A stretch of 64,000 nt of DNA. It comes from Alterileibacterium massiliense (GTDB lineage: Bacteria; Bacillota; Clostridia; Peptostreptococcales; Anaerovoracaceae). The stretch covers positions 449,289-513,288 of the forward strand of contig NZ_FNWE01000002.1 in assembly GCF_900104645.1 (NCBI RefSeq), written 5' to 3'. The translations under genes were made by a program, and so were the position numbers. Shown one piece after another: positions 6,408-10,727 of the stretch; positions within the stretch are counted from its first letter, which is position 1, and each line of letters begins with the position of its first letter. The notes beneath the pieces were generated by a model. That model saw only the letters and a list, made by a program, of their open reading frames with translations. It searched no databases and was not told where the DNA came from.

Positions 6408-7592
6408 ATGACAGAAAAAAGAACAAAGGTAGATATAATTTCGGGCTTTCTTGGTGCAGGAAAGACGACGCTCATAAGGAAGCTCATAAAAGAAGCATAT
6501 GGAGATAAGAAGATAATAATAATTGAGAATGAATTTGGGGAAATTGGTGTTGATACAGGATTTCTAAAGGACACAGGTGTTACGATAAATGAAATAACGG
6601 CGGGCTGTATTTGCTGTACTCTTGCAGGTGATTTTGCAAAAGCCTTAGATGAGGTAATGAGAGAATATAAGCCGGACATAATAGTGATCGAACCGTCCGG
6701 TGTTGGAAAACTTTCAGATGTTATTCTTGCTGTAAAAAGCCTTGGAAATGATGATATTTTATTAAATAGTTTTGCCTGCGTTGTAGATGCGAAAAAAGCT
6801 AGGAAATATCTAAAGAACTTCGGTGAGTTTTTTGAAAATCAGGTTGAGAATGCCGGTGCAATTATTCTTTCTCATACATCTGAACTTTCAGCAGAAAAGA
6901 TTGACGATGTAGTCGATATGCTTAGGGAGCTTAACAAAGAAGCTTCCATAATAACTACAGATTGGGAAGACCTTGATGGGAAAGATATTTTGGAAGCCAT
7001 GGAGCAGAAAAAGAGCTTAGACTTTATAATTAATAAGCTTAGAGAAGAACCTCTCGTTCACCATCACGAGCACGACCATGACCATCATCACGGTGAGCAC
7101 GACCATGAAAATGAGGATCAACATGACCACGACCATGGACATCATCACGAGCACGGTGAACATGACCACGACCACGAACATAATCACCAGCACCACGACC
7201 ATCACCATGAGCACGAGCACGAACATCACCACGACCATCACCATCATGACGACAATTGTGGCTGCGGGCATGACCACAATCACGAACATGGACATGATGC
7301 CGATGAAGTATTTAGCACTGTAGGAATTGAAACTGCAAAAGCATTTACTTTAGAGCAAATTAAAAAAGCCCTTGACGAGATAGAGGACGATTCTAAGTAC
7401 GGAATGGTAATAAGGGCTAAAGGCATAGTAAAAGGTGAAGATGGAAGATGGCTACATTTTGACTATGTTCCGGGAGAGGCAGATATTAGAGATGGATCTG
7501 CAGAGGTTACGGGAATGATATGCGTTATTGGAGTTGACCTTAAAGAAAAGGAGACAAGACAATTGTTCAGTCTGGAGGGCTGTGATGAATAA
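6408..7592 (+). CDS. COG0523/CobW-family GTPase with long His-rich metal-binding insert
   Basis: A G3E GTPase of the metallochaperone group (394 residues). Walker A is GFLGAGKTTLIRKL near residue 15; the metal-binding CxCC motif is present as GCICCTL. Residues about 219-300 hold an insert with roughly 40 His, many Asp/Glu and an NCGCG motif, suitable for buffering Zn, Co or Ni. The C-terminal CobW domain follows. The usual NKxD guanine-specificity motif is degenerate (ILSHTSEL). An AGGAGGAAG site precedes the ATG. The stop overlaps the start of a second CobW gene, so the two are translationally coupled. Metal is not determined; zinc is the best guess from the family. Confidence 0.88.
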   Translation: MTEKRTKVDIISGFLGAGKTTLIRKLIKEAYGDKKIIIIENEFGEIGVDTGFLKDTGVTINEITAGCICCTLAGDFAKALDEVMREYKPDIIVIEPSGVGKLSDVILAVKSLGNDDILLNSFACVVDAKKARKYLKNFGEFFENQVENAGAIILSHTSELSAEKIDDVVDMLRELNKEASIITTDWEDLDGKDILEAMEQKKSLDFIINKLREEPLVHHHEHDHDHHHGEHDHENEDQHDHDHGHHHEHGEHDHDHEHNHQHHDHHHEHEHEHHHDHHHHDDNCGCGHDHNHEHGHDADEVFSTVGIETAKAFTLEQIKKALDEIEDDSKYGMVIRAKGIVKGEDGRWLHFDYVPGEADIRDGSAEVTGMICVIGVDLKEKETRQLFSLEGCDE

Positions 7593-8541
7593 CGAACTTA
7601 GAGAAATACCGGTTTATTTATTTACAGGATTTCTGGATTCGGGAAAGACGACATTCATTCAGAGCGTGCTGGAAAGTCCTGAGGATAATTCGGATAAAAG
7701 GACACTGCTTTTGGTGTGCGAGGACGGAGATATAGAATATGCCCCAGCTAAGTTCACAAGTGATAATGTTATCATCGAAATGATTGAAGATGAGAAAGAG
7801 TTAAGCAAGGCACTTCTTTCAAGTCTTGCAGTTAGGCATAATATAGACGATGTAATTATTGAATACAACGGTATGTGGCTACTTGAGTCGCTCTTTAGAG
7901 TTCTTCCACCCAACTGGATAATTGCACAGGAACTCTGTTTTATCGATGCTACGACCTTTGAAATCTTCAATAAAAACATGAGGCAACAGACCTTTGATAA
8001 GATGAAGACACCGGACTTACTTGTTTTTAACAGATGTGTCCGTGGAGAATTTGATAAAAATGCTTTTCATAAGGAGGTCAGAATTGCCAGCCGTAAAGTT
8101 CAAATTGTTTATGAATATGGACCTGACGATGTAGAGCCGGATATAATAGAAGATCCTCTTCCATTTGATAAAAATGCTCAGATTATAGAGATTAAACCTG
8201 AATATTATGCGGAATGGTACAGGGATATTAATGAGAATCCTCTTGATTATGAGGGAAAGAAAGTGATAGTTACAGGTAGGGTAGCACTTGTCGAGCAGAT
8301 GCCTCGCGGAGAATTTGCCTTCGGTCGCCATGTAATGACCTGCTGTATTGAGGATATTCAATTTGCGGGGCTCGCAGCATATTGGAAAGAAGATTATAAG
8401 TATAAGGTTGGTGATTGGGTTGAAATTAAGGCTAAGATAAAAAATGAATTTAGCGATGCCTATCGTGAAAAAGGACCGGTTTTTCACTGCACCCATGTAA
8501 AAAAAGTTGACCCGCTCGAGCCTGAGGTTGCGACTTTTTAG
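7585..8541 (+). CDS. CobW-type GTPase fused to a YcgQ/TIGR03943-like C-terminal domain
   Basis: 318 residues from the ATG at 7585, chosen because GGAGGG stands five bases before it; a longer frame from 7528 lacks such a site. Walker A is GFLDSGKTTFI, but the CxCC metal motif is replaced (VCEDGDIEYAP) and the NKxD position reads FNRCVRGEFD. The last ~100 residues (GKKVIVTGRV, then GRHVMTCCIEDIQFAGL) resemble the C-terminal domain of YcgQ/TIGR03943 proteins, which occur with CobW proteins and membrane partners in Gram-positive bacteria. It overlaps the upstream GTPase by eight bases. I infer a two-GTPase metal trafficking pair. Confidence 0.75.
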   Translation: MNNELREIPVYLFTGFLDSGKTTFIQSVLESPEDNSDKRTLLLVCEDGDIEYAPAKFTSDNVIIEMIEDEKELSKALLSSLAVRHNIDDVIIEYNGMWLLESLFRVLPPNWIIAQELCFIDATTFEIFNKNMRQQTFDKMKTPDLLVFNRCVRGEFDKNAFHKEVRIASRKVQIVYEYGPDDVEPDIIEDPLPFDKNAQIIEIKPEYYAEWYRDINENPLDYEGKKVIVTGRVALVEQMPRGEFAFGRHVMTCCIEDIQFAGLAAYWKEDYKYKVGDWVEIKAKIKNEFSDAYREKGPVFHCTHVKKVDPLEPEVATF

Positions 8542-8553
8542 TAAAAAATGCGA

Positions 8554-8584
8554 TTGACAAAATTGGGGGGGGGTTATATATAAT
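8554..8584 (+). promoter_or_regulatory. promoter with nine-G tract in spacer (probable phase-variable switch)
   Basis: A consensus TTGACA (8554-8559) is followed by a run of nine G (8565-8573) and TATATAAT. Using TATAAT at 8579-8584 the spacer is 19 bp; using the overlapping TATATA at 8577-8582 it is 17 bp. The tract is the longest G run noticed in this AT-rich window. Gain or loss of G by slippage would change -35/-10 spacing, as in the well-known porA promoter of Neisseria. The ribosome binding site of the surface protein starts only 13 bases after the -10 box. Confidence 0.75.
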
Positions 8585-8608
8585 TAACAAAAATTCAAGG
8601 AGGAATTT

Positions 8609-10630
8609 ATGAAAAGCATAAAAAATAGATTGCCGGCAATCCTCGTAACATTTTTGTTAATGATTACAATGACCCTATTATTTAATCTGACAAAAACCTT
8701 TGCCGGCGAGGGAATAGTTAAAATAGGTAATAATTCGTATAATACGCTTGAAGAAGCATTTCAAGCTGCGGGAGCAGGAGATATTCTTGAACTAAAGGAA
8801 AGTATAGAAATTAAAAATCAGATTAGGGTTCCTGCAGAAAAAAATCTTACTCTAAATTTAAATGGAAATACCATAACTTCCGCCTTGTCAGATGAAAAAG
8901 ACTACGCATTTTTAATAGATACAAAAGGAAATTTTACTATAAAAAATGGTAAGCTTACCGCAAAAGATTTAGACGGAAACGGTTTTACCTCAGCAGGGAT
9001 TAAGGTTACCAAGGCTAATTTGGTTATGGACGGCATTGAAGCTTTCGATATTAAGGCTGAAAACAAAGGCTCTGTCCTGAGAAAACAGAATGTTAATAAT
9101 GAAACACTAAAGATAGTTGGCTGTTATTTCCACGATAATAGAGCTCTAAAAAGTGGTGGTGCGGTAGATATTTTCCACCTAGGTAAAGATGCAAAATGCG
9201 AGATAATAAATAGCAGGTTTATAAATAATAAAGCGGAGATACTTAAAAATTCCAACATAACTGAGACTTATAATGTATGGGGTGGAGCTATAAATTATTA
9301 TGGGCTTGGAGAGCTTATAATAAGAGGAAATGAAGTCACGAGCAACGAAGTTAAGTCAGAAAAATTATATCAAAATAGGAATTGGTCCGTAGGAGGCGGA
9401 ATACAGATTAAGGGGTATGATGTAAATCCAAGATTGAATAATAATTTAAGAGTAACCCTTGAGGACAATATTATTTCAAAAAATAAGGCACAGCTCTACG
9501 GAGGAGGACTTGCCCTAGACTTAAATAAATTTCTACGAAATGACCAGATTAATTTGGTGTCAGGGCTATTTTCCGAAAACAAAGCAGGAGTTGCTGGTGG
9601 TGGACTTGACTACATAGGGGAATATATGCCACTGTTAAAATTAAAGAATGTTCTTATGAAAGACAATAAGGCAATTCAAGCAGGAGGCTTATACCTTGGT
9701 GAAAATGGTAAAATAAGAAATCATTCTACATTCGGAGTTGCAATTTCGGATAATTCAATTTATAAGGATGGAGCATCAGCAAATTCAAGCGATATAAGAC
9801 TTGCAAAATTTAAATTTGATGATAATCAGGGCGAACAGACACCTCTATATGATAAGTTCACACTTCCTGAGAGAACTTTTATGGGTAATAAGCTGAGCTG
9901 GTATAATGATAAAAGAGGAGCCTTGTATAAGGAGGGAGATACTCCATTAGAGCGTGATGCTTATAGCAATAGAAAAAATGAGCTGATGTTAAAGGGAAGC
10001 TTGCTTTCTGATAAGGACTGGTATGAGCTTCATAAAGATTCAGCGGATCTGATATTTATCGGTAATATTGCGGGCACTGGTGGAGCGATTGTCAGCGGTT
10101 CAGATATAGACTTTGGAGAAGACCTTGATATAAAATGCAAGGTAGACAAGAAATGGATTGACGAGAATGGCAAGGAAATTACCAAGAAATTGCCTAAAGA
10201 AGTAGAAGTTCAGCTTATAAGAAAAGATGAAAAAGGCGGAATTTATGAGCTTGAAAAGGTAAAACTTAATAAAAAGGGTAATTGGTCATACGATTTTACA
10301 GATTTACCATCAATGGGAATAGTCAATGGTGAAACTTTGAAATTTAGCTATGAAGTTAAGGAGATTAGCAATTTAAAAGGATTTAAATCAAATATTGAGC
10401 AACTTCCGGCAACCGATGATGTAGAATACAATTATCTAATTACCAATACCAAGGAGAAAATAACGGAAAATCCGGATAAGCAAAATAAACCGGATGTATC
10501 TAATAAGAAAGACAATGCTAATTCAATCAAGACGGGAGATATGGATAGCATAATGCAATTTGCACTAATTGGCATTTTATCGCTCGTAGCATTTATTGCA
10601 CTTATTATTAAAAAATTAAAGACAAAATAA
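8609..10630 (+). CDS. cell-wall-anchored surface protein: beta-helix, Cna-B-like domain, sortase signal
   Basis: 673 residues with a signal peptide (1 to ~32, ending TKTFA). Residues ~60-500 hold repeats rich in Gly-Gly and Asn (SGGAVDIF, YGGGLALDLN, AGGLYLGENG), the look of a right-handed parallel beta-helix adhesin or polysaccharide-binding protein. Residues ~508-612 resemble a Cna-B domain (CKVDKKWIDENGKEITKKLP, SYEVKEI). A polar Lys/Asn linker leads to SIKTGD (639-644), a membrane helix and a Lys tail: a sortase sorting signal that departs from LPxTG. AAGGAGG precedes the ATG. Its promoter carries a nine-G tract, so expression may switch on and off. Ligand unknown. Confidence 0.85.
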   Translation: MKSIKNRLPAILVTFLLMITMTLLFNLTKTFAGEGIVKIGNNSYNTLEEAFQAAGAGDILELKESIEIKNQIRVPAEKNLTLNLNGNTITSALSDEKDYAFLIDTKGNFTIKNGKLTAKDLDGNGFTSAGIKVTKANLVMDGIEAFDIKAENKGSVLRKQNVNNETLKIVGCYFHDNRALKSGGAVDIFHLGKDAKCEIINSRFINNKAEILKNSNITETYNVWGGAINYYGLGELIIRGNEVTSNEVKSEKLYQNRNWSVGGGIQIKGYDVNPRLNNNLRVTLEDNIISKNKAQLYGGGLALDLNKFLRNDQINLVSGLFSENKAGVAGGGLDYIGEYMPLLKLKNVLMKDNKAIQAGGLYLGENGKIRNHSTFGVAISDNSIYKDGASANSSDIRLAKFKFDDNQGEQTPLYDKFTLPERTFMGNKLSWYNDKRGALYKEGDTPLERDAYSNRKNELMLKGSLLSDKDWYELHKDSADLIFIGNIAGTGGAIVSGSDIDFGEDLDIKCKVDKKWIDENGKEITKKLPKEVEVQLIRKDEKGGIYELEKVKLNKKGNWSYDFTDLPSMGIVNGETLKFSYEVKEISNLKGFKSNIEQLPATDDVEYNYLITNTKEKITENPDKQNKPDVSNKKDNANSIKTGDMDSIMQFALIGILSLVAFIALIIKKLKTK

Positions 10631-10691: not shown

Positions 10692-10727
10692 CCCACTTTG
10701 CTAATTTTTAGTAGAGTGGGATTTTTA
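10692..10727 (+). terminator. intrinsic terminator after the surface protein
   Basis: CCCACT (10692-10697) pairs with AGTGGG (10715-10720), with a further CTA/TAG pair inside, followed by ATTTTTAT. It lies 61 bases after the stop codon. Confidence 0.8.

Follow-up and report, generated by a model that had tools for sequence, protein, structure and literature searches.

Does a run of nine G between the two boxes of a promoter, immediately upstream of a gene for a surface protein, mark a site at which transcription is switched by phase variation, or is it an inert part of the spacer? The question is raised by a locus of the clostridial species Alterileibacterium massiliense, which lies in a stretch of 64,000 nucleotides (referred to below as the window; positions without a prefix are window positions). 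On the evidence set out below, the G9 element is very likely a phase-variable sigma-70-type promoter, working in the manner of Neisseria porA and Cutibacterium PPA1880.

Architecture of the promoter and its gene

The elements of the locus, of which the promoter parts and the ribosome site were read from the sequence, are as follows.

8554..8559, plus strand: -35 box TTGACA (6/6)
8565..8573, plus strand: nine-G tract, proposed slippage site within the promoter spacer
8577..8582, plus strand: alternative, poorer -10 box TATATA (4/6), spacer 17
8579..8584, plus strand: -10 box TATAAT (6/6), spacer 19 at nine G
8597..8603, plus strand: Shine-Dalgarno sequence AAGGAGG, with ATG at 8609
8609..10630, plus strand: 673-aa surface protein with signal peptide, Cna_B domain and C-terminal KTGD-type sorting signal
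10529..10540, plus strand: KTGD codons of the sorting-signal motif, residues 641-644
10692..10720, plus strand: intrinsic-terminator-like hairpin 3' of the surface gene

Direct reading of the sequence confirmed what the initial annotation had described, namely that TTGACA and TATAAT flank the nine G and that the spacer measures 17 or 19 bp depending on the -10 register. The tract thus lies between recognisable boxes with 12/12 matches, separated from TTGACA by AAATT and from TATAAT by TTATA, and TATAAT lies 24 nt 5' of the start codon. No plus-strand frame of at least 50 codons runs across the tract, so it belongs to a promoter and does not act as a switch within a coding sequence. The alternative -10 box at spacer 17 could act as a buffer against tract changes.

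The gene product has the attributes of a surface-exposed protein (signal peptide, Cna_B domain and KTGD-type anchor, in a genome with one sortase gene), so that its description as a sortase-type surface protein stands; the further description of it as a beta-helix is plausible only. The predicted structure, which is of moderate confidence (pLDDT 62.5), has a beta-rich, solenoid-like N-terminal part that weakly resembles beta-helix enzymes; its Cna_B part is similar to pilins and pilus adhesins of Gram-positive bacteria. A sequence search of the 673-aa protein against PDB chains returned no match. A paralog with 42% identity (C1:149223-151145) is without a poly-G promoter and carries a G7 run inside the gene.

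Long G/C tracts across the genome

The 1.45-Mb genome holds 15 G/C runs of at least 8 nucleotides, nine of which reach at least 9, where order 2-4 Markov models trained on the window would give ~0.5-1.6 and 0.06-0.27, respectively; an order-1 model, which fits more poorly and overstates long runs, would give ~10 and 2.4. The tracts are concentrated outside genes (9/15, against a non-coding fraction of ~0.08 measured on the window; p ~3e-7), and seven of the nine non-coding tracts, the focal G9 included, are placed between -35/-10-like boxes. Six of these seven were found by script and one (C2:251273) by hand, its -35 box lying beyond the script's search range. The 14 tracts other than the focal one are listed here.

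C1:204597: non-coding; TTGAAA/TATAAT, spacer 19
C1:206408: non-coding; TTGAAA/TATAAT, spacer 18
C1:291865: non-coding; TTGATT/CATAAT, spacer 19
C1:24948: non-coding; TTGCAA/TAGAAT, spacer 17
C1:106102: non-coding; TAGACA/TAAAAT with extended -10, spacer 16
C2:251273: non-coding; TTGACA/TACAAT, spacer 19, read by hand
C1:125693: non-coding; gene for a 1073-aa secreted protein, just 5' of its ribosome site
C1:419778: non-coding; 5' of a CLC channel gene
C1:35155 and C1:109003: coding; at the end of or just behind the signal peptide, currently out of frame with the remainder of the protein
C2:100975: coding; just behind the signal peptide, in frame
C1:288962: coding; within a secreted protein, in frame
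C1:381693: coding; closes the first HsdS part, with a second specificity domain following in a different frame
C1:425428: coding; within an opposite-strand frame of 72 codons, read as an ABC transporter start; no Pfam match

Secreted or anchored proteins, with G5, Rib, Flg_new, Cna_B, Ig-like or LPXTG-type features, are the targets of 12 of the 15 tracts, and one tract is found at HsdS. Three of the tracts end a signal peptide or come directly behind it; two of these are currently out of frame. The single sortase gene of the genome (C2:98159) is found near the C2:100975 tract, and a loose search for Gram-positive anchors gave 15 places at E <=0.1, seven of which are in genes with a tract of at least 8. 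The excess of long tracts at promoters and 5' ends of surface or restriction-modification genes that characterizes a phasome is therefore observed directly in this genome. Loss of mismatch repair as a cause of tract instability was considered and rejected: genes for both MutS and MutL were found, and nothing points to a mismatch-repair defect by which slippage would be increased.

Recurrence in relatives and in public genomes

The arrangement recurs well beyond this genome. In the family, the pattern TTGNNA-gap-G8-gap-TATAAT gave 24 matches (one place being entered twice via overlapping -35 choices) in 13/297 genomes and eight genera, and in the class a stricter TTGACA pattern gave 19 matches in 8/391 genomes; the reversed-pattern controls gave none in the 297 genomes of the family and none in the 391 of the class. 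At least 119 stretches of public species genomes carry the poly-G promoter arrangement, some GC-rich matches among which may be due to chance, and many of the matches listed come from metagenome-assembled genomes (MAGs) of animal-gut Clostridia and Bacilli that have not been cultured. It had been suggested at the outset that such promoters are rarely described in Clostridia; this holds for the literature, but in the genomes of Clostridia they are not rare. At least four poly-G promoters are found in a Candidatus Ancillula MAG (L032, L057, L076, L087), which takes the arrangement beyond Clostridia and Bacilli. In G647, a genome of another family found in the class search, there are nine poly-G promoters, five of which read TTGACAAACG9TG(A/G)TATAAT, a dispersed promoter cassette.

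The genes downstream are of one kind. Among the matches listed, 54/77 downstream genes have a signal-peptide-like start, against 99/641 other genes of the same loci (odds ratio 12.9, Fisher p 6e-23), as judged by a simple hydrophobicity rule and with loci of one survey that are not fully independent. The commonest downstream domain among these matches is the BspA-type leucine-rich repeat (10/81), and the median distance between the -10 box and the signal-peptide gene is 38 nt.

Tract length and the state of the proposed switch

Differences in tract length between otherwise near-identical promoters were found both within this genome and elsewhere. The tandem paralogs at C1:204597 (G10) and C1:206408 (G9) resemble each other from the -35 box on but not 5' of it, and ten G against nine is their sole difference across the promoter and the ~40 nt that follow. 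Among the matches listed, three near-identical pairs of other genomes (L039, L112, L115) also differ by one G, with small flank differences too in the L039 and L112 pairs, and three paralog pairs (L085, L136, L145) have tracts of equal length. These paralogous promoters, which are other than the focal one, show that the tract evolves more quickly than the sequence around it, with no switching rate implied. A scan of IMG/VR for length polymorphism among near-identical contigs gave five matches only.

The initial annotation had proposed that gain or loss of G would move the spacer around its optimum, and this can now be refined. The 28 other perfect TTGACA/TATAAT pairs of the genome (reversed control, 4) peak at spacer 17 (n=12), followed by 16 (n=6) and 18 (n=1), and none is at 19. 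The focal spacer of 19 is outside this usual range, so the sequenced nine-G state is probably a weak one and not neutral; its spacer is two longer than the usual optimum, and one or two slips would lead to stronger states.

Poly-G promoters as a group have a different distribution, with spacers scattered from 14 to 23 across loci. Among the matches listed of the survey, which comprise 116 distinct promoters, spacers of 16 (n=19), 18 (n=22) and 19 (n=26) all outnumber that of 17 (n=10), and spacer 17 accounts for 1/34 in the separate family and class samples. The deficit at 17 relative to neighbouring lengths is moderate and the comparison was chosen after the data were seen (p 0.02 for all, 0.002 for tracts abutting TATAAT, 0.01 for the second sample). 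Either sequenced populations that are mostly off or a different optimum for G-rich spacers may explain this avoidance of 17, and such a shifted optimum would account for the gap too. It is a tentative proposal, somewhat less probable than an even chance, that poly-G switches form a widespread, undescribed system of surface variation in uncultured gut Clostridia, Bacilli and some others, in which populations are mostly one or two slips from the 17-bp optimum, most cells being low and a minority on.

Probable phase variation and the alternatives

Phase variation by spacer slippage, as first proposed for this tract, is the best reading of the locus, and is supported by the genome-wide set of tracts at surface genes, the G10/G9 paralogs, and the recurrence with zero matches in the reversed controls. 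DNA polymerase slippage in the G9 tract of the focal promoter would add or remove G, the number of G would set both the distance between the -35 and -10 boxes and their rotational phase, and the altered geometry would in turn change the rate at which the surface gene (8609-10630) is transcribed. The promoter would belong to a set of ~15 G-tract contingency loci whose main effect is to vary the sortase-anchored and secreted proteins of the surface, and the biological role of such a set may be surface or antigen variation, adhesion, or evasion of phage or host.

It is unlikely that the tract instead gives a promoter, whether constitutive or regulated, a fixed structural spacer, in which a stiff G-rich duplex tunes strength and nothing switches. 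Relatives with several copies of the same length, such as the five of G647, and the three paralog pairs of equal length would fit such a fixed spacer, but in other near-identical pairs the difference is exactly one G, the genome also has intragenic G tracts where only frame switching makes sense, and the scatter of spacers across loci would not be predicted.

Transcription of the surface gene mainly by read-through from the CobW/CobW-DUF1980 operon, leaving the tract promoter of little weight, is quite unlikely. The upstream CobW-type gene ends at 8541 on the same strand, the gap to the surface gene is 67 bp, and no terminator-like site was found on the plus strand between the two genes, all of which would allow it; yet chance is unlikely to place a perfect -35/-10 pair as far from a strong Shine-Dalgarno sequence as promoters usually are, public genomes have this type of promoter before signal-peptide genes (at the median distance given above, among the matches listed), and the tandem paralogs carry the promoter as a unit that starts at the -35 box. 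The absence of a terminator behind the CobW-type gene means that read-through could mask the switch. The upstream genes (6408-8541) encode a His-rich CobW-type GTPase and a CobW-DUF1980 protein, with a probable role in metal handling, and the surface gene could be co-transcribed with them in part.

That the tract is a product of chance, or of a homopolymer misread in sequencing or assembly, and has no function is very improbable. Homopolymer lengths are error-prone, and a G8 run alone is within what a simple dinucleotide model of the window gives (0.69 matches expected). The G9 is the sole G or C run longer than 6 in the window. Taken alone it is not extraordinary; its combination with perfect boxes is. 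Perfect TTGACA-N(14-21)-TATAAT arrangements number four in the window, the G9 promoter among them, against 0.22 expected, and 12/12 box matches were reached by 0.05% of random anchors. Chance or error is also at odds with the excess of tracts in the genome, their bias to non-coding DNA, their match to surface genes and the empty reversed controls: a length might be off by one, but a whole set of tracts could not arise in this way.

An invertible promoter of the cwpV kind, inversion being the known mechanism of phase variation in Clostridioides difficile (PMC2784873, PMC9286219), can be practically dismissed, given that no inverted repeats were found to flank the promoter in 8300-8800, that the sole inverted repeat there (arms 8580-8604 and 8640-8664) does not do so, and that leader folding is not unusual (z 0.04). 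The same repeat was considered as a structure that hides the Shine-Dalgarno sequence and was rejected, the leader folding no better than its shuffles; those of other tract genes likewise folded no better than shuffles.

Comparison with known systems

The precedent named by the initial annotation, the porA promoter of Neisseria meningitidis, was kept, as in both cases a poly-G tract lies between the -35 and -10 boxes of a surface-protein gene. At 11 G the porA spacer is 18 bp. Expression is high with 11 G, 2.2-fold lower with 10 G and 13-fold lower with 9 G (PMC3639595); dependence on length has thus been measured for porA, whereas for the focal promoter we infer it. PorA is also a Gram-negative outer-membrane porin, and there is no homology of promoter or protein. 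Closer than porA is PPA1880 of Cutibacterium (Propionibacterium) acnes, a Gram-positive bacterium, where a G tract in the putative promoter spacer precedes the gene for a secreted protein: tracts of 11, 13 or 15 G give spacers of 18, 20 and 23, and the protein was secreted only by the strain with spacer 18 (PMC3224659). That species is an actinobacterium, however, the protein is unrelated, the tract is longer, and the variation is known from a comparison of strains, whereas the focal tract is known from one genome. In Bifidobacterium breve, a gut Gram-positive commensal that shares with the focal case G tracts and sortase-anchored surface structures, G-tract slippage controls sortase-dependent pili (PMC9187656); there the tract is in coding sequence, unlike the focal promoter tract, and coding-type tracts are found elsewhere in the present genome.

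Phase variation of surface or signalling genes is known in Clostridia themselves. The cwpV, pdcB/pdcC and flagellar switches of C. difficile operate by site-specific DNA inversion (PMC2784873, PMC9286219), unlike the focal promoter, which is without flanking inverted repeats, and the literature searched on clostridial phase variation describes inversion switches (PMC2784873, PMC9286219, PMC11868660). No report of poly-G promoters in Clostridia was found in the open-access papers searched. The mechanism is therefore already known; what is new is the lineage in which it is seen, and how large and how broad the repertoire is. Phase variation in Clostridia has mostly been described through DNA inversion, and ~15 G-tract loci in 1.45 Mb together with at least 119 public stretches would make simple-repeat surface switching common and overlooked there. 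The species survey provides ready targets, since metagenome reads that already exist allow their tract lengths to be counted with no need for culture. A testable prediction on the default state of genes with poly-G promoters comes from the avoidance of spacer 17.

Observations at other tract loci

Three further tracts have features of their own. At C1:381693-381701, G9 splits the two Methylase_S parts of a type I restriction-modification specificity gene, beside an HsdM-like methylase, and it is possible, judging from this arrangement, that the HsdS is phase-variable (a phasevarion). The promoter-like element with G10 at C1:291865-291874 lies 5' of a short signal-peptide frame that has seemingly been cut by an insertion; on the opposite strand there is a long frame which, by eye, resembles an IS110-type transposase. 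At C1:125693-125701, G9 is found in the leader of the 1073-aa secreted protein, between CCCCC and the ribosome site, and the length of this tract might act on translation instead of transcription.
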